A stretch of 44,735 nucleotides of DNA, taken from positions 1-44,735 of IMG/VR virus record IMGVR_UViG_3300043436_004620, one strand, 5' to 3'. A program made the translations under genes and the position numbers. Source of the stretch: a virus. The notes under the pieces are model-generated. The model ran no database searches. It worked only from the letters and a program-made list of their open reading frames with translations, and was not told the origin of the DNA. Below are positions 2,473-44,735 of the stretch, piece after piece. The stretch's first letter is position 1. Each line of letters opens with the position of its first letter.

Positions 2473-4230
2473 GTGACTAAAGAACAATTAATTATAGAAG
2501 TAACGAAGTGTATGAGGAATACTCCTTATGCACTTCGAACTTATTTACAGACATACGATAACACAGTTTCAAAGTATGTTCCCTTAGACCTTTTTCCTGA
2601 CCAAGTAAGTTTGATTGAAGACTACGATAACCACAATGAAAATATAGCATTGAAATACCGTCAGGCTGGTGTATCAACAGTTACTGCAGCTTGGGCTTCA
2701 AAAAAATTGGTATTTGCCAAAAAACAAAAACCTGAAAAGATTCTAATCATTGCCAATAAGTTAGATACATCTGTCGAGATGGCTAACAAGATTAGAAGTT
2801 TTACAGAACAGTGGCCTGCATGGGTTGGTGTTGGATTTTCAAAAGAAAAAAACTCTCAAAGACACTTCAAACTTACAAATGATTGTGAAGTTAAATCTGT
2901 TGCAACATCTAAAGATGCCCTGAGAGGTTATACCCCAACCATCCTTATCTTTGATGAGGCGGCGTTCATTGAGGCTGACGGGGATTTTTGGTCAGCGTGT
3001 ATGGCCTCACTATCTACGGGTGGTAAGGTTATTGTTGTTTCAACTCCTAACGGATATGACCCAATCTATTATGAAATTTATGACCAATCTTTGAGAAACA
3101 TGAACGATTTCAAAATATCTGAAATGTTTTGGTATCGTGACCCTCGTTATACAAAAGACCTTTTCATGGTTAAAACAAACGATTTGGTTCATTATCTTCT
3201 TAACAGAGAAGAATATTCCAAAGATTTGATTGTTGATTTATCGATTGAAAATCCATATGAAAGAGACCATACTATTACAACAAATTATATAGAACAAGGA
3301 TATAAACCATGTTCCGCTTGGTTTGAAGGAATGGTTAAGAAATTGAAATTCGATAGACGTAAGGTTGCACAGGAATTGGAATGTAACTTCTTGGGTTCAG
3401 GTGATAACGTGTTTGAATCTGAACTTATGCAAAATATTGCCAAGAATATGTTAAGAGAACCATCCGCTAAGTTGATGGGAGGGTCTTTATGGATATTTAA
3501 AGAACCCGTTAACGGTCACAAATATGTTATGGGTGTCGATGTATCGCGTGGAGATTCGGAAGACTTCTCGTGTATCCAAATCATTGATTTCGATGAAAGA
3601 GAACAGGTGCTAGAATATGTCGGGAAAGTTCCACCAGATGTTATTGCGGAAATCGCATATAAGTGGGGAACGATGTATAATGCTTATTGTGTTGTGGATA
3701 TCACGGGAGGTATGGGAGTTTCAACTGCAAGAAAAATGCAGGAAATGTCTTATGGAGGTGGTTTATATGTTGACAATATCGATACAACAAACAAATGGAA
3801 ATGGGACCCCAAATTAAATGAAAAAATACCAGGTATTAACTTCAATAGTAAAAGAGTTCAAATTATTGCAGCATTTGAAGAAGGTATGAGACATGATTTC
3901 AGAGTATATTCAAATAGATTATACAACGAAATGAATACTTTCATTTATATCAATGGAAGACCGGACCACCAAAAAAATCATCATGATGACTGTATAATGG
4001 GGATTTCTATGGCAATCTATGTTGCTGAAAAATCTTTCCAATCTTTAAATAAAGTTACAAATCATACAAAAGCCATGCTAAATTCTTGGACAAGTAATGT
4101 TCATGAAAATAGAAATACTTCTGATTTCTTTAATCCAATGATTCCACAGATGGGTAAAGATTCAAGAGTATGGAATAATGGAGCATCAAAAAAAGACTAC
4201 GAAACATATAAGTGGTTATTCGGGGGTTGA
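2473..4230 (+). CDS. terL: Terminase large subunit (T4 gp17-like)
   Basis: This is the 585-residue packaging motor ATPase-nuclease that cuts concatemeric DNA and pumps it through the portal. It starts at GTG 2473, because the ATG at 2466 hits a stop after four codons. The ATPase half shows a deviant P-loop KYRQAGVST (61-69), a Walker B strand with D161-E162, and a coupling motif STPNG (190-194). The nuclease half shows the RNase H-like acidic residues D356 (in GVDVSRGDS), D409 (CVVDITGG) and D505/D506 (HHDD). The length fits T4 gp17 (610 residues). The portal gene follows after 39 bases, while the tail sheath and tube genes found there in T4 are absent. Confidence 0.96.
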   Translation: MTKEQLIIEVTKCMRNTPYALRTYLQTYDNTVSKYVPLDLFPDQVSLIEDYDNHNENIALKYRQAGVSTVTAAWASKKLVFAKKQKPEKILIIANKLDTSVEMANKIRSFTEQWPAWVGVGFSKEKNSQRHFKLTNDCEVKSVATSKDALRGYTPTILIFDEAAFIEADGDFWSACMASLSTGGKVIVVSTPNGYDPIYYEIYDQSLRNMNDFKISEMFWYRDPRYTKDLFMVKTNDLVHYLLNREEYSKDLIVDLSIENPYERDHTITTNYIEQGYKPCSAWFEGMVKKLKFDRRKVAQELECNFLGSGDNVFESELMQNIAKNMLREPSAKLMGGSLWIFKEPVNGHKYVMGVDVSRGDSEDFSCIQIIDFDEREQVLEYVGKVPPDVIAEIAYKWGTMYNAYCVVDITGGMGVSTARKMQEMSYGGGLYVDNIDTTNKWKWDPKLNEKIPGINFNSKRVQIIAAFEEGMRHDFRVYSNRLYNEMNTFIYINGRPDHQKNHHDDCIMGISMAIYVAEKSFQSLNKVTNHTKAMLNSWTSNVHENRNTSDFFNPMIPQMGKDSRVWNNGASKKDYETYKWLFGG

Positions 4231-4269: not shown

Positions 4270-6123
4270 ATGGCAGAACAGAATTTAACAGTTTGGCAAC
4301 GATTATCCAAAACTTTTGGTCCAAATTCCCTTTTGGGTCAAGACTATCCAACTTTCAAGTTTGATAAGAAAGAAATATTACGCACAAAAAGTAGAGAAGA
4401 ATATGAGAAGGAAAAACTTCAAGCTCAACAATCATTCTATTTGGCAGGTCAATGGACAAAGGTTGAAAACAATTTATATTCTCAAGCCATCTATTACGAA
4501 CCATCAAGATTATCTGCCCAGTATGATTATGAATCGATGGAGTATACTCCTGAAATTTCTGCAGCATTAGATATCTACGCTGAAGAATCTACAACGACAA
4601 ACGAAGATGGATTCATTCTTCAGATTTATTCTGAATCAAAAAGAATCAAATCAGTATTAGCTGACTTATTCAATAACGCACTTGATATTAACACTAACCT
4701 TCCAATGTGGACAAGAAATACCTGTAAATATGGTGATAACTTTGTTTACTTGAAGTTAGACCCTGAGAGAGGAATTGTTGGATGTCAACAACTACCAACA
4801 ATTGAGATTGAAAGACATGAGGTAGGTGCGAGTCAAAAGATTTCAGTTCAGATTGAAAAAACTGAACCGAACAAAGCCTTAACTTTTACTTGGAAGAACA
4901 AGAACATGGAATTCCAAACTTGGGAGATTGCCCACTTTAGATTATTGGGTGACGATAGAAAACTCCCATACGGAACTTCTATGTTAGAAAAAGCAAGAAG
5001 AATTTGGAAACAATTGTTACTTTCTGAAGATGCGATGTTGATTTATAGAACATCAAGAGCTCCTGAAAGAAGAGTATTCAAAGTATTCGTCGGAAACATG
5101 AATGATGACGATGTTGAAGCATATGTTCAACGTGTTGCCAATAAGTTCAAAAGAGAACAAATTGTAGACAGTAAGACAGGTAACGTAGATATGAGATTCA
5201 ACCAAATGGCAGTTGACCAAGATTACTTCGTTCCTGTGAGAGACCCTGCAGCGCCAAATCCAATTGATACTTTAGCTGGTGCTACAAACTTATCAGAGAT
5301 TGCCGATATTGAATATATTCAGAAGAAATTATTGACGGCTCTTCGTGTTCCAAAAGCATTTTTAGGATTTGAAGAAGTTGTTGGTGATGGTAAGAATTTA
5401 TCTCTTCAAGATATTAGATTTGCCAGAACAATTAATAGGATTCAAAAAAGTATTTTGCAAGAACTAAACAAAATTGCAATTGTCCATTTATTCTTATTAG
5501 GTTTCGAAGATGAATTATCAAACTTTACTTTAGGTCTTTCAAACCCATCTACACAAGCCGACCTATTAAAAATAGATGTTTGGAAAGAAAAAGTATTATT
5601 ATACAAAGATTTAGTTGCAGACCCAGGAAATGGTATTCAAGCAACTTCATCTACATGGGCTAAGAAACACATCTTTGGTTGGTCTGATGAAGAAGTTAAA
5701 CTTGACTTACAACAACAAAGAATTGAAAGAGCAGTTGGTGAAGAATTGAAAGCAACTGCAACAGTTATCACAAAGACAGGATTCTTCGATAATATCGACA
5801 AACTTTACGGAACAACAACAGGAACCACAACAACACAAGGTGCTGAAACAGAAACTGAAAGTCCACTACCATCATTCGGAGGAGGAAGTGAACCAGCTGG
5901 ACTACCTGAACCAGCAGGTGGAGAATTAGGAGGAGGTGAAGCTCCACCACCGGCAGAAGCAGGTGGAGGTGAGGCTGAAGTAACACCTGAATCAAGAAAG
6001 AAGGACTTTAATATTTTAGTTGAAAATAACATGATTAAAGGAGACCAATTCCTTGATTTAGGAAAAGCTAGAGAATCTTTGGGAGAAATTTCAAAAGAAT
6101 TGGATAAGTTATTAAATTCATAA
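4270..6123 (+). CDS. 20: Portal vertex protein (T4 gp20-like)
   Basis: This 617-residue protein forms the dodecameric portal ring at the head vertex, through which DNA enters and leaves and to which the neck binds. Recognisable T4 gp20-type segments include YTPEISAALDIYAEES near residue 95, SEDAMLIYRTSRAPERRVF near 255, the acidic and polar crown/wing region after it, and the C-terminal helical block with IPKAFLG-type sequence (VPKAFLGFEE). Residues about 525-580 are a Gly/Pro/Glu-rich low-complexity linker, followed by a helical tail of about 40 residues. It sits between terL and the protease, as in T4-like head modules. The start is ATG 4270. Confidence 0.95.
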   Translation: MAEQNLTVWQRLSKTFGPNSLLGQDYPTFKFDKKEILRTKSREEYEKEKLQAQQSFYLAGQWTKVENNLYSQAIYYEPSRLSAQYDYESMEYTPEISAALDIYAEESTTTNEDGFILQIYSESKRIKSVLADLFNNALDINTNLPMWTRNTCKYGDNFVYLKLDPERGIVGCQQLPTIEIERHEVGASQKISVQIEKTEPNKALTFTWKNKNMEFQTWEIAHFRLLGDDRKLPYGTSMLEKARRIWKQLLLSEDAMLIYRTSRAPERRVFKVFVGNMNDDDVEAYVQRVANKFKREQIVDSKTGNVDMRFNQMAVDQDYFVPVRDPAAPNPIDTLAGATNLSEIADIEYIQKKLLTALRVPKAFLGFEEVVGDGKNLSLQDIRFARTINRIQKSILQELNKIAIVHLFLLGFEDELSNFTLGLSNPSTQADLLKIDVWKEKVLLYKDLVADPGNGIQATSSTWAKKHIFGWSDEEVKLDLQQQRIERAVGEELKATATVITKTGFFDNIDKLYGTTTGTTTTQGAETETESPLPSFGGGSEPAGLPEPAGGELGGGEAPPPAEAGGGEAEVTPESRKKDFNILVENNMIKGDQFLDLGKARESLGEISKELDKLLNS

Positions 6124-6146: not shown

Positions 6147-6845
6147 ATGACTTTCGGACAAGTAAAATCCATTATTGAAAAAAATCTTATTGAATCGTAT
6201 AGAAACGAGAAAGAATTTAAAAAATCTTTAAGAGAATTTAAGGAAAATGTTCTCAACAGTAAGTCGTTGTCCAAGGTTTATAACTTGTATGACCAACTTT
6301 CAACTTCTCAAGGTCTGAGTGCTTCAGATGCTAATGAATATGTTAATGAAGGTATTGGTCTTATCCAAAGATTATTACCAACAATCAAAATGCCAAAAAG
6401 TATATCTGAAAGTAATGACAACTTATATTCAGACATTGATACTTTAGTTTATACAAATAAGCTCAATATCCACGAAAGATTACAGGCTAGAAAAAATATC
6501 ATCAAAGTTTTAACTTCAGAAAACAAAATTGTTAAAGAATCTATACAAATTCCAATTAGCACAATGGTGAAAATCGCTAACCAAACTTTGGAAAATTATG
6601 TGGATACTATGGACGAACAATCTAAAAAAACCTTTATTGAAATTCTTAAATCTGATGGTGAAAATTTAAAAGAAGGTTTTTCAGCACTTAAAGAAAAAAC
6701 TATCGAAAAATTGAATTCGATTCTTGGCGAACAAAAAGAAAGTGATGTTATTGAAAAAATAACTGAAACAATTAACAAATTGAAAGGAGAAGAATTCAAT
6801 CAAATTAACTATGTAAAATTAGTTACTTTAGAAAAGAATTTATAA
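6147..6845 (+). CDS. Hypothetical head-module protein, possible prohead core component
   Basis: This 232-residue helical, charged protein starts at ATG 6147. Between portal and protease T4 has the small prohead core genes 67 and 68, so a core or internal head role is a reasonable positional guess, although I see no sequence match. The N-terminus MTFGQVKSIIEKNLIES is an amphipathic helix ending in L14-I15-E16/S17. That pattern fits the T4 prohead protease specificity and resembles the capsid-targeting peptides of T4 internal proteins. The C-terminus converges on and overlaps the bS21 gene on the other strand by six bases. Confidence 0.75.
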   Translation: MTFGQVKSIIEKNLIESYRNEKEFKKSLREFKENVLNSKSLSKVYNLYDQLSTSQGLSASDANEYVNEGIGLIQRLLPTIKMPKSISESNDNLYSDIDTLVYTNKLNIHERLQARKNIIKVLTSENKIVKESIQIPISTMVKIANQTLENYVDTMDEQSKKTFIEILKSDGENLKEGFSALKEKTIEKLNSILGEQKESDVIEKITETINKLKGEEFNQINYVKLVTLEKNL

Positions 6846-7028
6846 TTCGTTAACTTTTCTTTGTTTGTAAATTGCTTTCAACTTCTGAGCTCTTTTCTCA
6901 ACAGATTTTTTTGTGAATTCTTTCCTATTCATCAATTGTTGATTTTGTTTGGTCTTAATAACTTTAGACTTTAAAGTCTTGAGAGCTTTCTCAATGTTTT
7001 CGTTGTTTTTAATTTCTATAATTAACAT
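6840..7028 (-). CDS. rpsU: Phage-encoded 30S ribosomal protein bS21
   Basis: This 62-residue, very basic protein matches bS21 over its full length. It begins MLIIEIKNNENIEKALK, like the Bacteroidota MLIIPIK-GENIDRALK pattern. It continues with the RKEFTKKSVEKRAQ segment, equivalent to the R-x-x-F-x-KPS-x-x-R core, and ends in a Lys/Arg-rich helix. bS21 binds the 30S platform near the anti-Shine-Dalgarno end of 16S rRNA. Phage copies are known from environmental tailed phages. Here the gene runs against the surrounding head genes, overlaps the 3' end of the upstream gene by six bases, and has its own TATTTAT box. That points to expression during infection rather than a decayed fragment. Confidence 0.9.
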   Translation of the reverse strand: MLIIEIKNNENIEKALKTLKSKVIKTKQNQQLMNRKEFTKKSVEKRAQKLKAIYKQRKVNEL

Positions 7029-7036
7029 ATTCTGAA

Positions 7037-7043
7037 ATAAATA
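7037..7043 (-). promoter_or_regulatory. Candidate late promoter box TATTTAT (bS21 gene)
   Basis: Read on the - strand, TATTTAT lies 8 bases before the bS21 start. It shows the same orientation rule as the copies upstream of + strand genes. Confidence 0.45.
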
Positions 7044-7124
7044 TTATTGTTTTTTGTAATTTTTTGACATTGAGTTTTATATGTCTTATTTTTATTGAAA
7101 TAAACTTTAATAACATGAAATTTA

Positions 7125-7553
7125 ATGAAAAAAGGTAAAAGTGTAAAGTTGAATCTTTACAGTCCAATCAAATCAGTATATGGCACTGTCGATTCAAAAA
7201 ATTTAAAATCAATTTACATTAATATCCAATCTTGGGTATGTCCCAAAAAAGACCACGATAATTGGCATAGGGTTGTATGTAATCTCAATCGTGAAATAAA
7301 GCATTCAGTATTCAATTCAATATCTCAAACAGTTTTTATGGATAAAAGCATTGTAGATTTAGATTTAAGAACGAGTGGGATATTAGTCGGAAAAAAATCT
7401 TTTTTTAATTTAGAAGTAAATTTATATACAAATGAAGAATTAGATTTCAAATCTCAAGAATTAAAAGATTCAGTTAAAAGAATCGTTAAAAACATTTTTA
7501 CAAATAACCTTACAAACAATTCTTATTTCGACTTTTATAAAACCAAAAAGTAA
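7125..7553 (+). CDS. Conserved-looking hypothetical protein
   Basis: This 142-residue protein starts at ATG 7125; an ATG at 7116 in another frame stops after seven codons. It alternates beta-like strands with a charged C-terminal helix. The central part, with INIQSWVCP, VVCNLNREIKHSVF and VDLDLRTSGI, looks well ordered, and I recall similar unnamed proteins in marine T4-like phages, but I cannot name a family. It lies between bS21 and the prohead protease. The 96 bases upstream are shared with the divergent bS21 gene and hold the A/T-rich string TTATTTTTATTG near 7090, a poor match to the TATTTAT box. Confidence 0.75.
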   Translation: MKKGKSVKLNLYSPIKSVYGTVDSKNLKSIYINIQSWVCPKKDHDNWHRVVCNLNREIKHSVFNSISQTVFMDKSIVDLDLRTSGILVGKKSFFNLEVNLYTNEELDFKSQELKDSVKRIVKNIFTNNLTNNSYFDFYKTKK

Positions 7554-7601: not shown

Positions 7602-8318
7602 ATGAAGAAATTAAGAATTCTTGAGGCAAATGAATCAGGTCATGGTATTTTGATTGAAATGGATGCTGGCTATGTGTCTCCTCGTGAAGATATGAATGCA
7701 GCTTTTTTAAGAGAGGCTGTCAAAATGGATTATAAAAATCCTTTTGAATTTTATGCTGTTCTACAAAAATACGACACTCCAAACAGAAATGGTAGATTCT
7801 ATCCTGAAAGAATACTCAAGAGAGAGGCTGAAAGATATAAAAAAATGATTGCTAAAGGTTTATCAACTTCAGAATTAAACCATCCAGAATCTTCTTTAAT
7901 TGACCTCGATAGAGTTTCACACATAATAACAGACGTATGGTGGGATAAGAATATATTAATGGGTAAATTAAAATTACTCACTTCACCAGGTTTTCATGAA
8001 AGGGGTATCGTTTCAACTAAAGGTGACCAAGCGGCTAACTTAATGAGACAAGGGGTAACCATGGGTGTTTCATCAAGAGGTGTTGGTTCCTTGAAAAAGG
8101 TTGGGGAAAGAAATGAAGTTCAAGACGACTTCGAGTTAATTTGTTTTGACTTAGTATCCTCACCTTCAACACCTGGTGCTTATCTTTTCTCAGATGTGAA
8201 CGAAAGAGAAAAATATGAAGAAAATCTTGAAGAAGAAAAGAAAGTTTCACAACCTGAGAAGAATTTAGACAAGTCTATTGATTTGATGAAAAAACTTACC
8301 GATTTTTTAGGTAAATAA
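7602..8318 (+). CDS. 21: Prohead maturation protease (T4 gp21-like)
   Basis: This 238-residue protease of the T4 gp21 family cleaves scaffold and capsid proteins before DNA packaging. The diagnostic parts are the N-terminal substrate-like segment NGRFYPERIL (63-72), the catalytic His in ELNHPES (H94), and the catalytic Ser in GVSSRGVGS (S157/S158). These are followed by the conserved strand FELICFDLVSSPSTPGA. The length fits T4 gp21 (212 residues). Its own N-terminus reads I6-L7-E8/A9, a good self-cleavage site for this family. The C-terminal 40 residues are charged and probably removed on maturation (inference). Confidence 0.93.
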   Translation: MKKLRILEANESGHGILIEMDAGYVSPREDMNAAFLREAVKMDYKNPFEFYAVLQKYDTPNRNGRFYPERILKREAERYKKMIAKGLSTSELNHPESSLIDLDRVSHIITDVWWDKNILMGKLKLLTSPGFHERGIVSTKGDQAANLMRQGVTMGVSSRGVGSLKKVGERNEVQDDFELICFDLVSSPSTPGAYLFSDVNEREKYEENLEEEKKVSQPEKNLDKSIDLMKKLTDFLGK

Positions 8319-10660: not shown

Positions 10661-12472
10661 ATGGGAGCATTATTAGAATCAGGTCTTGTTGGTAACATCG
10701 GTCTTAAGCACCTTAAAGTTATCAAAGAAGACACAATCGGAAAATGGGACAAATTAGGATTCTTAGAGGGTCTTAAAGGTCACATGAGAGAGAACGTAGC
10801 ACAACTTTATGAAAACCAAGCGTCATACCTTATCAACGAAGCTTCAACAACTTCAGATACAGGTGCTTTCGAAACTGTGGTTTTCCCTATCGTTAGAAGA
10901 GTTTTCTCTAAATTATTAGCAAACGATATCGTATCAGTACAAGCTATGAACTTACCAATTGGTAAATTGTTCTACTTCGTACCTAACATTCAAAACTATG
11001 AAGTAGGTGGTAACCCAACTTCAGATTTTGGAGAACATTATGCACCTTATGGTTCACCAAACCAAACAGCAGGTCAAACACCTAACAGTGGTTATAACTA
11101 TAACACAGGTAGAACATTGTATGACAAGTTCTACGAGGGTGAAGAACCAGCATTAGACCCACCAGGTTTATATGACTATTCTAAAGGTACATTCTCCGCT
11201 GTAACAGGTACTGCAGTAACTGCACAATGGAATAATGTAACATTAAACCTTGACCCTTACGGTTATGCTCTAGGTAACTACAGAAAAGTATTAATTATTA
11301 TGTCAGGTTTTGCATCTGCTGGAGCTGGTAAATTAATTGGTCCTGATGGTCAACCAATCGACAACGAATCATTCTTGTCTGATTTAACTATCTATGGAAC
11401 AAGTGTTACAAACACAAATGCAAATGCTTCAGGTCCTTACTTATTCAGAGTTGTAACTCAAAGATATGGTAAAGGTATTGTTCAATACGGTAACAACAAT
11501 GCTACTTTAGCATTCCCTACCTCAAAAACAGGTGGTGGTCAATACGATGACATTTGTGATGTTGAAGGACAAATTTATCTTGAAGTAGACCTTCAGGTTC
11601 CTGCATGTATTTCTTGCGGTGGTTCAATCGACGGTTACACAGGTTCAACGTTCTCTTCTACAACAGATAATAACAATGCGTTTATTCCTGTTTACAGAAT
11701 TTACAAGAACTTAGAATTCGAAGATAGAATTGGTGAAGTTTCTTTCGATTTACAATCTGTAACAGTTTCTGTAACTGAAAGAAAATTAAGAGCACAATGG
11801 TCTCCAGAAATGGCACAAGACGTTGCGGCATTCCACAACATCGACGCTGAAGCTGAATTAACAGCTTTATTATCTGAGCAAGTTGCTGCTGAAATCGATA
11901 GAGAAATCTTAAGAGACCTTAGAAAAGGTGCAGCATGGAACTTAAGATGGGATTACAACGGTTGGAAGAGATTAGGTACTAACGCAGTTCCTTACACTCA
12001 AAAAGACTGGAACCAAACGCTTATCACAGCAATCAACCAAGTTTCTGCTCAAATCCATAAGTCTACTTTAAGAGGTGGTGCTAACTGGATTGTTGTTTCT
12101 TCTGAAATCAGTGCAATTTTTGATGATTTGGAATATTTCCACGTATCAAACGCAGCTCCTGAACAAGACCAATACAACATGGGTATTGAAAGAGTTGGTA
12201 CTTTAGCTGGTAGATATCAAGTGTATAGAGACCCTTACTTCCCACCAAACCAAGTTTTATTGGGACACAAAGGAACGTCTTTACTTGACACAGGATACAT
12301 CTACGCACCATACGTTCCATTACAACTTACACCTACAATGTACAATCCGTTCAACTTCACTCCAATCAAAGGTATCATGACTAGATACGCTAAGAAGATG
12401 GTGAACAACAGATTCTACGGTAGAATCACAGTTGATGGCGTAAGAACATTCGACTTAAAAGAATTGAGATAA
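10661..12472 (+). CDS. 23: Major capsid protein (T4 gp23-like)
   Basis: This 603-residue protein is the main shell protein of the head. The N-terminal GKWDKLGFLEGLKGH (residues 27-41), NQASYLINEAS (52-62) and the following TVVFPIVRRVFSKLLANDIVSVQAMN are typical of gp23 proteins. So is the C-terminal TRYAKKMVNNRFYGRI segment. The site I58-N59-E60/A61 fits the gp21 protease consensus and sits almost where T4 gp23 is cut (after residue 65). Mature shell protein would therefore be about 543 residues. A variable insertion with a Cys-rich patch (VPACISCGGS, about 305-314) may be a surface domain. A strong terminator follows. Confidence 0.96.
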   Translation: MGALLESGLVGNIGLKHLKVIKEDTIGKWDKLGFLEGLKGHMRENVAQLYENQASYLINEASTTSDTGAFETVVFPIVRRVFSKLLANDIVSVQAMNLPIGKLFYFVPNIQNYEVGGNPTSDFGEHYAPYGSPNQTAGQTPNSGYNYNTGRTLYDKFYEGEEPALDPPGLYDYSKGTFSAVTGTAVTAQWNNVTLNLDPYGYALGNYRKVLIIMSGFASAGAGKLIGPDGQPIDNESFLSDLTIYGTSVTNTNANASGPYLFRVVTQRYGKGIVQYGNNNATLAFPTSKTGGGQYDDICDVEGQIYLEVDLQVPACISCGGSIDGYTGSTFSSTTDNNNAFIPVYRIYKNLEFEDRIGEVSFDLQSVTVSVTERKLRAQWSPEMAQDVAAFHNIDAEAELTALLSEQVAAEIDREILRDLRKGAAWNLRWDYNGWKRLGTNAVPYTQKDWNQTLITAINQVSAQIHKSTLRGGANWIVVSSEISAIFDDLEYFHVSNAAPEQDQYNMGIERVGTLAGRYQVYRDPYFPPNQVLLGHKGTSLLDTGYIYAPYVPLQLTPTMYNPFNFTPIKGIMTRYAKKMVNNRFYGRITVDGVRTFDLKELR

Positions 12473-24620: not shown

Positions 24621-25207
24621 TTTATTTCTTTAATTTTTTCTTCAAGTTCTTTCAATTTTGAGATTGAATACTTTGTTTTAATGTCTGAGTTGTATGTTGT
24701 GTCGTATTTAACCACAACTTTTCCTTCAGGATGGTTTAATAATAATTGTGGATTTGCCGTAAGTAAAATGTCTACGGAATCCCAAAGAGAATTAATTGTG
24801 GATTCACTGTAAAACTTTACAGTTTCAACCAAACATCCAAATTTAGATATGAAAAATAATGATGCTGGTTTAGATTTACCCATTTCATCTGAAACAACAA
24901 GAATGTCGTGTTCGTCACGCATGTTTAAATAAAAATCATTGAAATCCATCATTGATGAAGTTTCAACAGAACCAGCGTGTCCAAAAATTTCCATCGTATG
25001 TTCTTTATATAGGAAATTATACACATCATCTTCGTTTTTAAATGCGAGATGTTCTGAAATATTCAAGGTAGTCAAATCGGAAATCACTTTGTATTCAAAT
25101 TCAGTTTCTTCTTTGAACGGGTTTTCGATATACCACTTTTCATATTCCTGTTGTATTTTTCTCAATGTGTCTCTTAAAACGCCATTAAGTTCAATTCCTA
25201 TTTTCAT
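24617..25207 (-). CDS. HAD-like protein with altered catalytic aspartates
   Basis: This 196-residue protein opens with KIGIELNGVLRDT, the first strand of the HAD/5'-nucleotidase fold. Active enzymes of that type have D-x-D here (as in IGIDLDDVLRD); this protein has E6 and N8 instead. A later DILVVSDEMGKSKPASLFFIS segment would match the HAD core strand II and Lys, and VDILLTANPQLLLNHPEGK the third motif. So the fold seems kept while the nucleophile is lost, which points to a binding or regulatory role rather than a phosphatase. It overlaps the phoH-like gene by 4 bases. Confidence 0.65.
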   Translation of the reverse strand: MKIGIELNGVLRDTLRKIQQEYEKWYIENPFKEETEFEYKVISDLTTLNISEHLAFKNEDDVYNFLYKEHTMEIFGHAGSVETSSMMDFNDFYLNMRDEHDILVVSDEMGKSKPASLFFISKFGCLVETVKFYSESTINSLWDSVDILLTANPQLLLNHPEGKVVVKYDTTYNSDIKTKYSISKLKELEEKIKEIK

Positions 25208-25938
25208 TCTTCGTATCTTTTTAAAATTCCTGTAATCAAAGGATTTCTTACAATATCTTGTCCTCCAAATTCAAAAGTTCCGATATCATTCATATCCTGA
25301 AACTTTTGTAATGCATCCCAAAGACCCGTGTGTGTTTTATCCTTGTGTCTATCAAATTGTTCCAAGTCTCCTGAAATAAAGAATTTAGAGTTAAATCCAA
25401 TTCTTGTTAAAAGAAGTTTCATCTGACTTGGAGTTGAATTTTGTGCTTCTTCAAAAATTAAAATTGAATTGTCAATATTCATACCTCTCATGTAAGCTAA
25501 TGCAAAAACTTCAATAGCTTCGATGTCTTTTAATTTTTCTCTCACATCTTTACCAATAATTTTGTTCAAAAGATAATAAGATGGGAAAATATAAGGGTCT
25601 AATTTTTCTTCTACATTACCTGGGAGACTTCCTAATTTTTCTTCTGCTTCAACTGCTGGTCTGACGATTATTATTTTCTCATAAGGAGTTTCTGGGTCTA
25701 CCAATAAGTCTACAGCACATTTCATTGCTATATAACTTTTACCGACCCCTGCAGGACCTGAACATATTGTTATTTGATTATTTGTGAGAATATCATAATA
25801 ATGTTTCTGACTCTCTGATAAAAATTTTTGTTTAGTTTTCTTTTTTACGATTGAACAAATTAAATCTTTTTTACTTTTAAAATTACCCTCACTTACTGTG
25901 GGAGTTGGTTGTGGACTTCTTCTCGTCAATTTACTCAT
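25204..25938 (-). CDS. phoH: PhoH-like ATPase
   Basis: This 244-residue P-loop ATPase shows Walker A GPAGVGKS (61-68), Walker B SILIFEEAQNSTP (158-170), the conserved IIIVRPAVEAEEKLGSLPG segment (89-107), and SGDLEQFD near the sensor position. PhoH-like genes are very common in marine and freshwater phages; the protein is an RNA/nucleotide-linked ATPase whose phage role is unsettled. The N-terminal 40 residues are a basic, Pro-rich linker. It is translationally coupled to the HAD-like gene and follows the epimerase gene by 5 bases. Confidence 0.93.
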   Translation of the reverse strand: MSKLTRRSPQPTPTVSEGNFKSKKDLICSIVKKKTKQKFLSESQKHYYDILTNNQITICSGPAGVGKSYIAMKCAVDLLVDPETPYEKIIIVRPAVEAEEKLGSLPGNVEEKLDPYIFPSYYLLNKIIGKDVREKLKDIEAIEVFALAYMRGMNIDNSILIFEEAQNSTPSQMKLLLTRIGFNSKFFISGDLEQFDRHKDKTHTGLWDALQKFQDMNDIGTFEFGGQDIVRNPLITGILKRYEE

Positions 25939-30834: not shown

Positions 30835-31491
30835 TTATTTAATTGCTTTCCAATCGTCATTAACAGGTAATTCATCAATGCCAATTCTTTCACCAACAAA
30901 TCTAAAGGTATCTCTTTTAGTTGGGAAAGGTTTTTTTTCGAAAAAGTCATCATGAACAACCTTGTCAATTTCAAATGCATTATAGACCATTTTTAAAAAG
31001 GTTTGGTCAATACCATACTTATTTTCTTTACCAACAACAAACTTTTTTATCATCTGTGTTAATGGTAATTGTTTTCCTTTGATACCCCACATACCAGCTA
31101 ATATCCCTAATGTGTTATTACCATAAGGAATACCGTGAGCTGGATGGTCTCTCATAACGTGTAAAGATTTTCCAGTTTCAATCCAAGCATTTACTGCGTC
31201 TCTTTCTCTCAAATTGATTCTTGAATCAGTGTCTCTGAATATTACAAGGTCACAGTCTTCTAAGTCAGATGCAAAAAATCTCCAAAAACAACCATATTCG
31301 AAATCATCAACCTTTACAAGAATACAGTTAAGTGTTTCCAATTTGGAAATAGTTTCAGATGGAACTGAATTGTCATAATACAATATCATTTTCCAATCAG
31401 GGTAAATGAGAGGCATGAGTTCAGCATTTCTTATTGCTCCAACATTATAGAGTGGTTTATCTCCCCACAAACTGAAGCTAACATATTTCAT
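30835..31491 (-). CDS. Putative glycosyltransferase with DTDSR motif
   Basis: This 218-residue protein begins KYVSFSLWGDKPLYNVGAIR and has CFWRFFASDLEDCDLVIFRD followed by TDSRINLRERDAVNAW, a GT-A-type metal/donor motif D-T-D. Next come HVMRDHPAHGIPYG and LAGMWGIKG, and a C-terminal YGIDQTFL helix. I know this arrangement from small glycosyltransferase-like proteins in bacterial and phage surface-sugar loci, but not with a defined substrate. Its start overlaps the upstream two-domain transferase by one base (TAATG). Confidence 0.7.
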   Translation of the reverse strand: MKYVSFSLWGDKPLYNVGAIRNAELMPLIYPDWKMILYYDNSVPSETISKLETLNCILVKVDDFEYGCFWRFFASDLEDCDLVIFRDTDSRINLRERDAVNAWIETGKSLHVMRDHPAHGIPYGNNTLGILAGMWGIKGKQLPLTQMIKKFVVGKENKYGIDQTFLKMVYNAFEIDKVVHDDFFEKKPFPTKRDTFRFVGERIGIDELPVNDDWKAIK

Positions 31492-33071: not shown

Positions 33072-33677
33072 TTAAATACCAGTGCTTCCGAATCCATTGT
33101 CACCTCTATCTTGTTCATCAAAATTATCAGTTTCAATTAGTTGAATGAACTTTCCGTTCATCACAGGACAGATAACACCTTGAGCAATCTTCATTCCTTT
33201 TTCGATTTTGACAGGAGATAATGTTGAATTGAATACAATTACTTTGACTTCACCTGAATATCCTTGGTCTACGGTTCCTGGTGTGTTTAACACGGTTAAA
33301 CCCATCTTGAGGGCTAATCCACTTTTAGGTCTAATTTGTAGTTCATATCCCATTTCAAATTGAAAAGAAAGTCCTGTTGGAACTAATACTCTTCCAAGTG
33401 ATGGAATCTCAACACTCTCAGTTGAGTGAAGGTCGAATCCTGAATCTGATGGATAATTGTATGATGGCATTACCGCATCATCGTTAAGTTTTTTTACCTT
33501 GACAACTTTCATTTGCATGGAGTCATATAACTGTTTCTCCATTTCATCCCATTCCTCATCTGTTATGTTGTCTACTATTTCAGAATAGTTTTCAGTTGGT
33601 TCGTAACCAGCCTCTTCTTTAAGTTTTTCGAACAAACTTTTTAGTTCTTCGATTTGGTTGTTGTCTAATACACTCAT
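33072..33677 (-). CDS. dut: dUTPase with acidic N-terminal extension
   Basis: This protein hydrolyses dUTP to dUMP and PPi, keeping uracil out of phage DNA and feeding dTMP synthesis. It is a trimeric-type dUTPase of 201 residues with all five motifs: SDSGFDLHS (77-85), RPKSGLALK (116-124), GTVDQGYSGEV (134-144), GMKIAQGVI (161-169) and RGDNGFGSTG (191-200). Typical enzymes have about 145 residues. Here the first 55 are an extra acidic, helical segment (NQIEELKSLFEKLKEE and TDEEWDEMEKQLYD) of unknown use. It is coupled to the exonuclease gene by a 4-base overlap. Confidence 0.95.
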   Translation of the reverse strand: MSVLDNNQIEELKSLFEKLKEEAGYEPTENYSEIVDNITDEEWDEMEKQLYDSMQMKVVKVKKLNDDAVMPSYNYPSDSGFDLHSTESVEIPSLGRVLVPTGLSFQFEMGYELQIRPKSGLALKMGLTVLNTPGTVDQGYSGEVKVIVFNSTLSPVKIEKGMKIAQGVICPVMNGKFIQLIETDNFDEQDRGDNGFGSTGI

Positions 33678-34375
33678 GATAATGTCATTAATTTTGATAC
33701 TACGTCTATTAATACTGATACGTCTTTTTCACAATATTTTGCAATTCCTTCGTAATCTTTTTTTACCCAAAAAGCTTCATGAACTTTATTTCCTGTAACC
33801 TCCATAGTCTTTGAAGATTCAACACCTAAACATACACACATTAATTCTAATGAAGCAATTGAACCATATCCACCATATTGCCATAACTCTTTTGTATCTA
33901 ATGCTTTTATCTCCCATGGTTTTGTATCATGACCAGGAAGTATCTTCGGAGGAAGTAATCCGTTCATAATCATTCTTTTTGCTAACACAGGGATATCAAA
34001 ACCCTTAACGTTGTGTCCACACAGATAGAAACCTAAATTTCCAATTCTATGTAATAGTTTTTGAACATCTTTCAAAAGTTTCTTTTCGTCAGGGTCACTG
34101 AAGGATTGCATTTTTGTTTCACCACCATCTGTTACGAACGCGACTGAAACACAAGCAATTCTTGAAAACTCAGGAACAAGGGCTGCTCTGTTTACGAACA
34201 TTTGTTCAACACCCTTATCGGAGTCTTCAGGAAATCTTTTTTGAAACCAGTCAAAATAGTGTTCGAACTGAAATGAAAGAGGCTCTCTGTTTTTCTTCAG
34301 AGAGTCCCAATCAGGTTCGATACCAACTGTCTCAATATCTAAGAATAAAAATTTAGTTAGTGGTATTGATATCAT
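33674..34375 (-). CDS. DnaQ-like 3'-5' exonuclease (PolB-type exonuclease domain)
   Basis: This 233-residue stand-alone exonuclease of the DEDDy type has Exo I FLFLDIETVG (D13, E15), Exo II LCGHNVKGFDIPVLAKR (D127) and Exo III YCEKD (Y214, D218). A middle segment SRIACVSVAFVTDGGE is typical of the PF10108-like predicted PolB exonucleases. It probably degrades single-stranded DNA, trims ends or helps replication fidelity. The genes on both sides overlap it by 4 bases, so it belongs to a tight operon with dUTPase and a glycosyltransferase. Confidence 0.85.
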   Translation of the reverse strand: MISIPLTKFLFLDIETVGIEPDWDSLKKNREPLSFQFEHYFDWFQKRFPEDSDKGVEQMFVNRAALVPEFSRIACVSVAFVTDGGETKMQSFSDPDEKKLLKDVQKLLHRIGNLGFYLCGHNVKGFDIPVLAKRMIMNGLLPPKILPGHDTKPWEIKALDTKELWQYGGYGSIASLELMCVCLGVESSKTMEVTGNKVHEAFWVKKDYEGIAKYCEKDVSVLIDVVSKLMTLS

Positions 34376-38279: not shown

Positions 38280-41200
38280 ATGTCATATCAGAATATTAAT
38301 CAATACAATTATAGAAGGTGGGCGTTAATTCCATTCAATGAAATCACTGACATTTGCCTTGCATCAGATGAAAAAGACTATGACCAAGAGGTAGTTTTTT
38401 CTCCTTTGTTGATTGGTGAAAATGATGGGAATCGTATGCCGTTTAAGTTTGATATCAATCATTCAGCAACAACTTTATGTCAATCGGCAACATGTTCTTT
38501 TGATAATCAAACAATTGTTTCTGAAAACTATTGGAACCCAACTGATACTGACCCGAACTTTTGTCCGATAATTACTGACTTATGCGATGTTGGTTTAACA
38601 GGTATAGATAATGGACTTGTTAAAAAAATGTCTGGTGAAACAATCCAAATTAATACAGGTTTATATTCAAGTATCTCAGACAAATACAGTAGATACAAAT
38701 ATGATAGGAGAATGAAAATGCATCCTATCACAGGTTTCACTACAACAGCGAATAGACTTTGGAATGATAACTCGTATTCATATGACTTGTCTTATTCAAA
38801 TGAAAATAATAGTGTAGGATGGTTTGCAAAATTGAATGGTGGATTCTTCCAAGGATTTTATAAAATAGCCGGATATGATTATCAAGTTTTTCCTGAAAGA
38901 GTAAATTTAGGATGGACAAGTGAATTCTTATTAAGATATAGATGGACTGGTGATACTTCAGTAGGTTTGAATAACCGATACCCTGATAATAAAGGAACAT
39001 TCTTTTTCATGGGTGCGAGAGCTGAAAACAAATTCTATCACTATGCTGAAGGAAGTCCACCACAAGACACAGGATATACAAGAGTAACCTCAGGTTTAAC
39101 CTGTATGCATACTTGTGGTTGCACAAGTAGTGCTAACACAGCCTCTACTTGTTATTCGGTTTATCAATTATCAGGAATTACAAACACAACTTGTGGTTGT
39201 AGTTGTTCTTGTAGTTGCTCTTCGTCAGCACAATTTCCTGAGAAAGACCCATTATATGATGGTGTTTCGAACGGATTATCTCTGAGGTTGAGTGGTGATA
39301 GTGGTAACCCGAGATTATGTATTAAGACATATAGGATTACAGGTGGTTGCGAATCTACAGGAACTTGTTTGACAGGATTGACATATGTCACTGGAACATC
39401 AGTAACTGAATGGTGTTCTACGAGAGGTATTTTTGATGACTGTAGAAATACAACATATATTAATGTTGAACACTGGGTTCAAATCGATGCCGTGTTCCAA
39501 CGTAATGAATATTTTTCAGGATGTGACCTTTGGGATAAAGGTGGTCTTGGATTAATTGTTTCGGATGAATATACCGCTACAACAGCCAATAACAGTTTAA
39601 GTTTAATTAAACCTCCAATAACCCACGCAGATGTTTATGACCCTGAAACAACTGAGGTTGTTACATTCACAGATATTTGGATGGAGGAGAAAAAATATAG
39701 ATTGGGTAAGTTAAAACTATTCGTGAATGGTAGATTGTTCATGGTTGTTGAAAACTTCGAAGAAATTATTCCACACTTAGTTAACGTTGAAAAAGAAAAA
39801 CAAATTGGGGTTGGTTATAACATTTCATTAGGTGGGGGAACACAAGGTTTAAAAGATAACTTAACATTCTCAGGAACTTGTCCTGCAACTGTTGATGAGA
39901 TAGTTTATCAACAAGACCCTGAATGTTTAACCACACATGACTTAGATAATACGATTTATTCAGGTTTAACAACTCACATCAAATTAGAGGAAATTTTCGG
40001 TGGAAGTATGATAGGTGATATCAGTGCATTTAGAATGTATACTGAACCCCTCAACGCTAGCCAAATTGCACATAACTTCAGAGTCTTAAAGGCAAGATAT
40101 GATTTATTAGACCCTAATTGTCCTAACTGTAGAATCGTTGTTCCTGATAATGATTTAACATACTTAGCATTCCCTTGTAATGATTTGTATTATGAATTAT
40201 TCGATTGCCCTACACCAACACCTACTGTAACATCAACTGTGACTCCAACAATAACACTCACACCGACAATTACTCCTACATCAACTGTCACTCCAACAAT
40301 TACTGAAACTCCTACACAAACTCCTACAAATACTCCCACAGTGACTCTTACAGAAACTCCGACTCAGACTCCGACAATTACTCCTACGGTTACGACAACT
40401 TCAACTGTAACACCAACTGTATCTCAGACTGAAACTCCTACACAAACGCCAACTCAAACACCTACTCCAACACATACAAGATTCCCATTCTTATCCTGCA
40501 CTGGCACAACTTCTGTCGAGGCGTGTGCATGTTCTTCAGGGACTGTGACAATTTGGGGAGATTTTTCTAATTTCGATGAGAATGACTTCTTCTATAACAA
40601 CGCAATAGGAGATGTTACAGTTGATATGACAGGATTTTATGTGTTTGATTCGATAAGTGTTGAGCTGGATTCCAACGGATTTATTGTTGGGTCTTACAAT
40701 CTTTGTCCAACAGTAACACCGACTCAAACACCAACAGTAACACCAACACCTGGTTTATCTCCAACACCAACTTCAACAACAACTCCAACAATTTCAGAGA
40801 CACCGACACAGACACCAACAGTTACTGAAACTCCAACAGTCACACCGACTGAGACTCCTACGCCTACTGTAACAGAAACTCCAACAGAAACACCTACACC
40901 TACTGTTACTGAAACTCCAACTAACACTCCAACTATTACTCAAACAGAAACACCAACTAACACTCCGACTACTACAGAAACGCCAACAGTTACACCTACT
41001 GAAACTCCAACACCTACTGTGACTGAGACTCCGACTAATACCCCAACGCCAGGACTTAGTCCAACACCTACACCAACAATAACACCTACGATATCAGAAA
41101 CTCCAACAAATACACCAACTGAAACCCCAACACCAACACCAACTTTGCCTGATAATAATTTCTTGTTACAAGAAGATTATTTCATGATTCTCCAAGAAGA

Positions 41201-42950
41201 TGGATTCGGAATTTATATTGAAACCGAAATTCCAACACCAACACCTACCCCTACTCAGACTGAAACACCTACTCAGACTCCGACTAATACGCCAACTATA
41301 ACACCTACTCAAACTCCAACTAACACACCAACACCATCTACAACATCAAGTATTGTAAACTCAGGATTGGTTATTCAACTTGATGCATATGAAAGTTCAA
41401 GTTACCCTGAAACAGGAACGACTGTTTTTGACATCACAAGTGGATTCAATCATACATTAATTGGTGCAACTTACACAGTTCTTAATGGTATAAAATGTTT
41501 CGATTGCACAACAGGAACTAATAGAGTTAATTTGGGAGTAACAGGTCCTACACTACCAACATCTGGATACACGTATATCACTTGGGCAAGATTAATAACA
41601 AGTACTGCTGGATTCAGAACATTACTTTACACAAACTCGCCAAAATATACACCAATTACCATTCCTAATGGAACAAATACATTAGGATATTGGGATACTT
41701 CTTTCAAAAGTTCAGGATATGATGTTGCATCTTCAGCTGACGTTTGGGTTCAGTATGCAGTAGTTGGAACAAATACATCTCAAACATTCTACATAAATGG
41801 TTCACAAGTAGGAAGTACTATCAGTGCAGGTGCAGGTGGAACCACACATTGGGGATGGGGTAATAATGATGTCGCTGGTCAACCTTGGGGACATGTTGCC
41901 AACATGTATTTCTATAACAGACAATTAAGCCTTGCTGAAATAACACAACAATACAATTATTTGGCACCAAGATTTGTGGAACCAACACCTACACCTACAA
42001 CAACAAGCACTCCAACGGTTACACCAACTGTAACTCCAACTCCAACTTTACCTGACTTGGATTTCTTATTATTTGAAGATAATTCAGTTGCAACTGCGGA
42101 AAATGATGATAATATTCAAATTGATATTATTCCATCACCTACACCAACAAATACCGCAACACCAACGCCAAGTGTAACTAATACCCAAACACCAACATCA
42201 ACTACAACTCAGACTCCAACAAACACAACAACCACTACTCCAACACCATCTACAACACCTAATGTTGTTACAACTAACCTACAACTTTATTTACAACCAA
42301 GTAGTTATGTTGGTTCAGGAACTGTTTGGGATACTTCAGTTGGAACAACTGATGCTACACTATCAGGTAGTCCAACCTATAACGTATCTAGTGGATTCAC
42401 ATTCAACGGAACATCATCTTTTGGTAGAATACCAAGTGTTAATGGGGTAACAAACTTTACAAATTCTCAACAATATACTGTCGAGGTATGGTTCAACCCT
42501 GCTAACGGTCAACCAAACTCAGGTGAAGCTGAATTATTAGAAAAATGGAACTTAAATAACGAAGCAAGATACCCTTACACTATTAGATTTAACGAAGGTG
42601 CGAGTAGTATGTTAGTTGCCGCCTTTGACGGAACTAACTTCCCTCAGGTAAGTGTAACAGGTTTCCCTGTGAATACTTGGAGACAATTAGTTGCGGTTTA
42701 CGATTTTGTTGGTAAAACTCTCACAGTTTATAGAAATGGTGTATCTGGCGGAACTACAAGTTTAGTTGGTGTGGGACAAGTAAGTAATACGAGTCCTGTT
42801 GGTATTGCGGGTAGAGTTGCAGCAGGAACTGGAGGTTTACAAGTTCCATTCAAAGGAACTGTTGGAATAATAAGAATGTATGATACATCATTAACTTCTG
42901 CACAAGTTTTACAAAACTTCAATGCTGATAAATCCAAATATGGACTATAA
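38280..42950 (+). CDS. Giant tail fibre/adhesin with Thr-Pro linkers and LamG-like domains
   Basis: This 1,556-residue protein is the largest in the window. Residues 1-640 form a beta-rich region with LamG/concanavalin-like strands (HWVQIDAVF, KLFVNGRLFMVVENF, GDISAFRMYTEPLNASQI) and a Cys cluster near 275-316. Long Thr-Pro tracts (about 644-733, 809-957, 984-1022, 1235-1257, 1285-1327) alternate with folded parts. These are a small Cys-containing module, two short FLLxED modules, and two C-terminal LamG-like domains (about 1025-1230 and 1330-1556) with FYINGSQVGS and TVYRNGVSGG strands and LSLAEITQQYNY / LTSAQVLQNFN endings. LamG folds bind glycans, so this is probably a receptor-binding virion fibre. 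No chaperone or peptidase domain is visible. Confidence 0.82.
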   Translation: MSYQNINQYNYRRWALIPFNEITDICLASDEKDYDQEVVFSPLLIGENDGNRMPFKFDINHSATTLCQSATCSFDNQTIVSENYWNPTDTDPNFCPIITDLCDVGLTGIDNGLVKKMSGETIQINTGLYSSISDKYSRYKYDRRMKMHPITGFTTTANRLWNDNSYSYDLSYSNENNSVGWFAKLNGGFFQGFYKIAGYDYQVFPERVNLGWTSEFLLRYRWTGDTSVGLNNRYPDNKGTFFFMGARAENKFYHYAEGSPPQDTGYTRVTSGLTCMHTCGCTSSANTASTCYSVYQLSGITNTTCGCSCSCSCSSSAQFPEKDPLYDGVSNGLSLRLSGDSGNPRLCIKTYRITGGCESTGTCLTGLTYVTGTSVTEWCSTRGIFDDCRNTTYINVEHWVQIDAVFQRNEYFSGCDLWDKGGLGLIVSDEYTATTANNSLSLIKPPITHADVYDPETTEVVTFTDIWMEEKKYRLGKLKLFVNGRLFMVVENFEEIIPHLVNVEKEKQIGVGYNISLGGGTQGLKDNLTFSGTCPATVDEIVYQQDPECLTTHDLDNTIYSGLTTHIKLEEIFGGSMIGDISAFRMYTEPLNASQIAHNFRVLKARYDLLDPNCPNCRIVVPDNDLTYLAFPCNDLYYELFDCPTPTPTVTSTVTPTITLTPTITPTSTVTPTITETPTQTPTNTPTVTLTETPTQTPTITPTVTTTSTVTPTVSQTETPTQTPTQTPTPTHTRFPFLSCTGTTSVEACACSSGTVTIWGDFSNFDENDFFYNNAIGDVTVDMTGFYVFDSISVELDSNGFIVGSYNLCPTVTPTQTPTVTPTPGLSPTPTSTTTPTISETPTQTPTVTETPTVTPTETPTPTVTETPTETPTPTVTETPTNTPTITQTETPTNTPTTTETPTVTPTETPTPTVTETPTNTPTPGLSPTPTPTITPTISETPTNTPTETPTPTPTLPDNNFLLQEDYFMILQEDGFGIYIETEIPTPTPTPTQTETPTQTPTNTPTITPTQTPTNTPTPSTTSSIVNSGLVIQLDAYESSSYPETGTTVFDITSGFNHTLIGATYTVLNGIKCFDCTTGTNRVNLGVTGPTLPTSGYTYITWARLITSTAGFRTLLYTNSPKYTPITIPNGTNTLGYWDTSFKSSGYDVASSADVWVQYAVVGTNTSQTFYINGSQVGSTISAGAGGTTHWGWGNNDVAGQPWGHVANMYFYNRQLSLAEITQQYNYLAPRFVEPTPTPTTTSTPTVTPTVTPTPTLPDLDFLLFEDNSVATAENDDNIQIDIIPSPTPTNTATPTPSVTNTQTPTSTTTQTPTNTTTTTPTPSTTPNVVTTNLQLYLQPSSYVGSGTVWDTSVGTTDATLSGSPTYNVSSGFTFNGTSSFGRIPSVNGVTNFTNSQQYTVEVWFNPANGQPNSGEAELLEKWNLNNEARYPYTIRFNEGASSMLVAAFDGTNFPQVSVTGFPVNTWRQLVAVYDFVGKTLTVYRNGVSGGTTSLVGVGQVSNTSPVGIAGRVAAGTGGLQVPFKGTVGIIRMYDTSLTSAQVLQNFNADKSKYGL
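40210..40480 (+). repeat. Thr-Pro repeat tract 1 in the fibre gene
   Basis: About 90 codons follow the pattern TPT(V/I)TxTxT, as in TPTQTPTNTPT and TETPTQTPT. The DNA is a degenerate ACT/ACA/CCA/CCT array, prone to slippage. Confidence 0.85.
40706..41150 (+). repeat. Thr-Pro repeat tract 2 in the fibre gene
   Basis: About 148 codons contain the recurring decapeptide-like unit TPTVTETPTETPTPTVTETP. The pieces TPGLSPTPT occur twice, near 40745 and 41045, so larger units have duplicated inside the tract. Confidence 0.85.
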
Positions 42951-43515: not shown

Positions 43516-44735
43516 ATGCCCAATTTACCAATATCGCAATTACCATTAGCAACATCAGGACAACCAGAATCTTGGATGGCAATTGTAAACTATGATGTAG
43601 ACTCATCAGGAATAACTAATAAAATATATTTTTCAGCTTTAACTGAACAATTTTCAGGTTCAACAGGAACAAGTGGAACTTCTGGTTCTTCGGGAACAAG
43701 CGGTATTGATGGTTCATCAGGAACAAGCGGAACAGATGGTAGCAATGGTTCTTCAGGAACAAGCGGAACAGATGGTAGCAACGGTTCTTCAGGAACGAGT
43801 GGTAGCTCAGGTTCTTCAGGTACTTCTGGCTCAAGTGGAACGGATGGTAGTTCGGGAACTAGTGGTATAGATGGTTCATCAGGAACTTCTGGTTCAAGCG
43901 GAACAGATGGTAGTTCGGGAACTAGCGGATTAGATGGTTCTTCGGGAACATCAGGGTCGAGCGGAACAGATGGTAGTTCGGGAACTAGCGGATTAGATGG
44001 TTCTTCAGGTACTTCAGGTATAGATGGTAGTTCAGGAACAAGTGGAATAGATGGTTCATCAGGAACTAGTGGAACAGATGGCTCAAGTGGAACTTCAGGT
44101 ATAGATGGTAGTTCAGGAACAAGCGGAACAGATGGTTCAAGTGGTACTTCAGGTATAGATGGTTCTTCAGGAACTAGTGGAATAGATGGTTCAAGTGGTA
44201 CTTCAGGTATAGATGGTTCTTCAGGAACTAGTGGAATAGATGGTTCATCAGGTACTTCAGGTATAGATGGTAGTTCAGGAACAAGTGGAACAAACGGCTC
44301 ATCAGGAACTTCAGGAACTTCAGGATTGGTTGCCTCTAATTATGTTGCGAAAGGAGTTAAAAATGGTACACCTCAAACTATACCAAATGAGACCGATACA
44401 ATAGTTACGTTTATAGATGATTTTGACCCTCAAGGTTGGATTACCTCTAACAAGTTTCAACCAAATATTGAAGGTTATTATACAATTCAAGTGGCTGTAT
44501 GGTGGAACCCTGCTACATCAGGAGCAACAGGACAAAACAATATTCAACTTAGAAAAAATGGTACTACACAAGTTGCGATTCAACAATCGCCACTTATACC
44601 TACTGAAGGATATGGTCAAGAAATTGATATTATAGTATTTTTTAATGGTACAACAGATTATGTTGAAGTTACAGCATATAGTGCTAATCCAACATCTCAA
44701 AATATAAATGGAGCGGGAACAGGAACTTGGATTAC
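43516..44735 (+). CDS. Collagen-like fibre protein with C1q-like head, 3'-truncated
   Basis: The frame opens at ATG 43516 (MPNLPISQLPLATSG) and is still open at the window end after 406 codons. Residues 1-47 form an attachment segment related to that of the previous gene. Residues about 48-270 are a Gly-x-y collagen-like array (GTSGSSGTSGIDGSS type). From about residue 272 a globular domain follows with NYVAKGVKNGTPQTIPNETD, TIVTFIDDFDPQG, FQPNIEGYYTIQVAVWWNPA and IQLRKNGTTQVAIQ, the layout of C1q/TNF-like domains. Collagen-like stalks of this kind form trimeric fibres in phages. A host-receptor role is likely. Confidence 0.8.
   Translation, partial: MPNLPISQLPLATSGQPESWMAIVNYDVDSSGITNKIYFSALTEQFSGSTGTSGTSGSSGTSGIDGSSGTSGTDGSNGSSGTSGTDGSNGSSGTSGSSGSSGTSGSSGTDGSSGTSGIDGSSGTSGSSGTDGSSGTSGLDGSSGTSGSSGTDGSSGTSGLDGSSGTSGIDGSSGTSGIDGSSGTSGTDGSSGTSGIDGSSGTSGTDGSSGTSGIDGSSGTSGIDGSSGTSGIDGSSGTSGIDGSSGTSGIDGSSGTSGTNGSSGTSGTSGLVASNYVAKGVKNGTPQTIPNETDTIVTFIDDFDPQGWITSNKFQPNIEGYYTIQVAVWWNPATSGATGQNNIQLRKNGTTQVAIQQSPLIPTEGYGQEIDIIVFFNGTTDYVEVTAYSANPTSQNINGAGTGTWI
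43657..44325 (+). repeat. Collagen-like Gly-x-y repeat array
   Basis: 223 codons follow a Gly-x-y triplet pattern with the dominant nine-residue unit GTSGIDGSS or GTSGTDGSS. At DNA level many copies share strings such as ggaactagtggaatagatgg, so the array is likely to vary in length between isolates and to be hard to assemble. Confidence 0.9.

Follow-up and report, generated by a model that had tools for sequence, protein, structure and literature searches.

An arrangement much like the one analysed here was reported by Chen et al. 2022 (PMC9723584), who described 47 Bacteroidetes phage genomes (myoviruses, 293–331 kb, 31–33.7% GC) with a reverse-strand gene for ribosomal protein bS21 inside the module that encodes the terminase large subunit (TerL), portal, protease and major capsid protein (MCP). 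In these phages residue 54 of bS21 is Tyr or another aromatic, expression of the gene is late and coincides with that of the structural genes; a neighbour encoded on the opposite strand is co-expressed with it, and replacement of host bS21 was proposed. Mizuno et al. 2019 (PMC6375957) showed that the bS21 of pelagiphage HTVC008M is incorporated into 70S ribosomes of E. coli. On the host side, rpsU is autoregulated via an extended Shine-Dalgarno (SD) sequence that is read by bS21-lacking ribosomes (McNutt et al. 2023, PMC9976891). That paper also discusses phage bS21, and its passage on phages holds no analysis of phage leaders; the main text of Chen et al. mentions neither autoregulation nor promoters nor leaderless messages.

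Our locus lies in a 44.7-kb viral fragment (44,735 nucleotides, the window). It shares with the phages of Chen et al. the GC content (33.7%), the presence of PhoH, the aromatic residue 54, a bS21 set apart from hosts in the tree and, in the window as in 80 relatives, a reverse-strand bS21 gene between two hypothetical genes of the TerL/portal/protease/MCP module; it differs in being known as a fragment rather than as a complete large genome. Carriage of bS21 by a myovirus is also shared with HTVC008M, but the protein of that Pelagibacter phage is of the alphaproteobacterial type, unlike ours. While the arrangement and the replacement idea are already known, three observations go beyond earlier work: the host SD control signal is missing from the phage gene, the TATTTAT motif upstream of it is phage-wide, and the gene starts of a 321-kb relative make no general use of SD sequences.

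A bS21 gene antisense within a T4-type head module

The open reading frame at 6840–7028 on the minus strand is intact, starts with ATG and comprises 62 codons (the span includes the stop codon). It encodes a genuine bS21: the HMM search that the preliminary description had named as the refuting check returned Pfam Ribosomal_S21 (PF01165) at 44.2 bits against a cut-off of 27 (E 1.5e-11), the single match to this family across the whole virus record, and NCBIfam S21p (TIGR00030) at 29.0 bits, barely above its curated cut-off of 28.95. The closest solved chain is Flavobacterium johnsoniae bS21 (7jil_z, E 2.7e-9), which aligns with no gaps across residues 1–57, so that the phage Tyr corresponds to position 54. 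An AlphaFold model (mean pLDDT 79, pTM 0.36) shows helices at 12–36 and 41–61, that is, a basic two-helix protein of about 60 residues, as is bS21; all eight Foldseek matches in the PDB are ribosome bS21 chains, yet they are weak (E of at least 0.5) and add little. The HMM scores, the best PDB match and the retained Tyr54 bear out the earlier assignment to the Bacteroidota type. Like Flavobacterium host bS21 (7JIL; PMC9976891), the phage protein combines a gapless alignment over 57 residues with Tyr54 and the C-terminal helix pattern; unlike it, it has a phage-only block at residues 19–30, and its identity to the three host rows aligned is 47–52%.

The gene is antisense between the portal and prohead protease genes, amid plus-strand genes of a T4-type head module: TerL (2473–4230; PF03237, phrog_2), the T4-type portal protein (4270–6123; PF07230), a 232-aa hypothetical gene (6147–6845) that converges with bS21 and overlaps it by 6 nt, a 142-aa hypothetical gene (7125–7553) divergent from bS21, the prohead core protease (7602–8318; PF03420) and a gp23-type MCP (10661–12472; PF07068). 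Its description as opposite to all neighbours is correct for this left module but does not extend to 13.6–38.2 kb, where nearly all genes also lie on the minus strand. The 142-aa gene stands beside bS21 in all relatives that reach that far; its product matched no Pfam or PHROG family and nothing in annotated phage records. From its position we infer that it is the co-expressed bS21_CN gene of Chen et al. Comparison of the divergent intergenic region (7029–7124) across 79 loci with 47 distinct versions revealed a conserved TTTTTGAC...TATTTTT element on the plus strand, opposite to bS21; this agrees with the co-expression that Chen et al. (PMC9723584) describe. Most relatives also have, at about 7115–7127, an out-of-frame ATG 10 nt before the start of the 142-aa gene (ATGAAA.TTAATGAA), possibly a short upstream ORF or an alternative start.

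Elsewhere in the window, PhoH (25204–25938), a dUTPase (33072–33677) and a PolB-type exonuclease (33674–34375) lie amid sugar-metabolism and glycosyltransferase genes. A 1556-aa protein with a C-terminal LamG/ConA-like lectin domain is encoded at 38280–42950, and a tail-fibre-like protein with collagen repeats (43516–44733) runs off the window end.

Gene order and antisense bS21 are the same as in the window in the best 80 of 576 related stretches in viral contigs, as far as each contig extends. Since these are related contigs, they reflect descent from one arrangement and not 80 independent events. Two relatives with the same module measure 317 and 321 kb, and the phage, which is of T4 type, is probably a jumbo phage of Bacteroidota, a host suggested by protein similarity and the literature. 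Among the relatives bS21 evolves under strong purifying selection, with a median dN/dS of 0.056, and residue 54, which stacks on the anti-SD, is aromatic in each of the 80 complete phage rows (Y in 74, F in 5 and H in 1). Moreover, L19, S21, V23, K27 and Q28 are invariant in 47/47 distinct phage proteins, the usual host residues at these sites being Y, R, F, G and T, a set that overlaps the divergent positions marked by Chen et al. (PMC9723584).

The preliminary description had proposed a bS21 phylogeny with host and phage copies. We compared 47 distinct phage proteins with 54 bacterial ones, nearly all from Bacteroidota, in a tree built on 64 columns. The phage proteins form one clade on one side of a branch, separate from host bS21, with support 100/99 and a stem of 1.68 changes per column. 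So few columns leave the inner branching unsure, and a long-branch host row placed beside the phages (L232) may be misplaced. The matches listed in 297 Bacteroidota genomes have at most 58% identity to phage bS21, so the acquisition looks old. Scanning genomes with the phage bS21 as query found no relative, and we saw no recent donor. Annotated phage records yielded only two weak bS21 matches, both from 735-kb uncultured phage records. Some host genomes (G127, G207, G097, G046, G112 and G149) carry two or three bS21 genes.

The bS21 leader and the TATTTAT motif

For each leader we calculated the pairing energy between the 25 nt before the start codon and the 16S tail, which we take to be AUCACCUCCUUUCU; pairing below −13 kcal/mol marks the extended SD of an autoregulated Bacteroidota rpsU. 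Flavobacteriales-type host rpsU lies between −17.5 and −23.3 kcal/mol in 80/80 loci, and among wider Bacteroidota 21 of the 30 best-matching loci of the 297-genome sample fall below −13 kcal/mol. The phage leaders, unlike those of Flavobacterium rpsU, lack this autoregulation signal: all 79 pair at −4.9 kcal/mol or weaker, none has an extended SD, and the leader in the window reaches −1.4 kcal/mol. Counting distinct leaders only, the threshold is passed by 25/25 hosts vs 0/40 phages. Because the extended SD is absent, the phage gene should escape host feedback, and judged by its leader it would stand outside the rpsU circuit.

What the leader does contain is a TATTTAT box (7037–7043, minus strand), 8 nt before the bS21 ATG. 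The preliminary description had noted this box as the gene's own; its presence is confirmed, but the motif is shared with the head genes, where it lies 13–29 nt before the start, and recurs phage-wide. Of its 16 copies in the window, 11 precede a correctly oriented gene start by at most 40 nt (31 times the genome rate), as against 1/16 copies of the reverse complement. TATTTAT also ranks first among the 7-mers found ahead of genes in the 321-kb relative (L212–L228; 26-fold, 100/195 copies). There it precedes only 1 of 105 genes that start at most 5 nt behind a same-strand gene, compared with 95/216 of the same-strand or divergent genes that have wider gaps or are arranged differently. This near-absence from closely coupled genes fits a promoter and disfavours a ribosome-binding motif, with the caveat that the DNA upstream of the 105 coupled genes is coding. 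TATTTAT is a phage-wide promoter-like motif. In sister clades of the window's own, the box some 5 nt ahead of the bS21 start is mostly TATTTGT or TATATGT, and neither variant shows enrichment upstream of genes in the one relative tested (321 kb).

The spacing of TATTTAT in the 321-kb relative peaks at 4–6 nt and at 12–17 nt before the ATG, defining two classes that suggest many leaderless phage mRNAs. The late box of T4 is TATAAATA; if TATTTAT acts like it, the bS21 message and many others would have no leader or almost none. Pfam searches of ten genes with the near-ATG motif revealed no functional class. Among the proteins of the 321-kb relative, one clearly has sigma-70 region 2 and another is a weak candidate.

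Replacement of host bS21 and rival readings

In our view the best explanation, to which we assign a probability of roughly 0.6, is late, feedback-free replacement of host bS21 with the anti-SD kept hidden. A functional bS21 paralogue would be transcribed opposite the virion genes from a phage-type promoter common to those genes. Its mRNA, having no SD, should be readable by normal bS21-replete ribosomes, so host feedback should not restrain it. The product would enter the bS21 site on host 30S subunits, where conservation suggests that its C-terminal helix and Tyr54 keep the anti-SD tail sequestered, and the phage-only block at residues 19–30 would take the place of the host N-helix and loop surface facing the mRNA. 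As the anti-SD would stay hidden by the phage protein, translation of host rpsU should remain low, and the phage copy could gradually displace the host copy, host correction not being triggered. Late replacement, which the preliminary description had also put forward, is plausible and was already a published hypothesis with metatranscriptome support (PMC9723584). Three points count against it: E. coli ribosomes with pelagiphage bS21 are nearly inactive (~5%; PMC6375957), the SD could have been lost passively when the promoter changed, and the bS21 box of sister clades is mostly one of the two variants that show no enrichment upstream of genes in the relative tested. A bolder version would make the replacement one-way, the feedback-free bS21 also shutting off host rpsU translation by hiding the anti-SD, its own mRNA, like many other phage mRNAs from TATTTAT promoters, having little or no leader, and the altered N-terminal helix favouring messages of this kind; we consider this doubtful.

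The preliminary description had suggested that phage bS21 changes start-site choice via the anti-SD. One reading of this idea is that the protein frees the 16S tail and favours SD-bearing phage mRNAs. We reject it as highly improbable, since residue 54 is aromatic throughout the complete phage rows and a relative makes no general use of SD sequences. Across the 323 gene starts of the 321-kb relative, median anti-SD pairing is −1.9 vs −1.5 in composition-matched shuffles, with 5% vs 2% of starts below −8 and 0.3% vs 0.15% below −13; SD-directed start choice is therefore unsupported. An apparent avoidance of SD sequences, seen against random genome positions, vanished against the same type of shuffles. 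The one feature in favour of an exposed tail is a window gene of unassigned function (30835–31491, minus strand) with an rpsU-like extended SD, AAAGGAGGTGG, at −17.8 kcal/mol. However, this SD falls within the last part of the preceding gene's coding sequence, and only relatives of at least 92% identity keep it, those at 71% or less having lost it; the same pattern led us to discard it as a sensor of bS21-lacking ribosomes.

Of the other readings, specialised initiation is compatible with late replacement and would add selectivity to it: following the hypothesis of Chen et al., ribosomes with phage bS21 would prefer phage over host mRNAs through the altered N-terminal half of the protein. The phage-only invariant block at residues 19–28 agrees with this, as does the fact that Chen et al. 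(PMC9723584) placed the divergent positions where mRNA would bind; yet we identified no feature unique to phage late mRNAs that could be recognised, and TATTTAT behaves like a promoter and not like a ribosome-binding motif. We hold such a preference to be possible, at somewhat less than even odds. An extra-ribosomal role, with bS21 packaged in the virion (as also raised by Chen et al., PMC9723584) or acting in head assembly, would explain the location in the head module, a position kept in the best 80 of 576 relatives. Such a role appears improbable given that the residues common to ribosomal bS21, Tyr54 included, are under purifying selection and that the gene lies on the opposite strand, outside the head operons.

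Late replacement thus remains the reading we favour, and its interest lies in the way Bacteroidota use bS21 both to hide the anti-SD and, through ribosomes that lack it, to control its own synthesis. A phage gene in which the hiding residue is kept and the control signal is gone would provide a sharp model of how a virus may take over a ribosomal protein without host correction.
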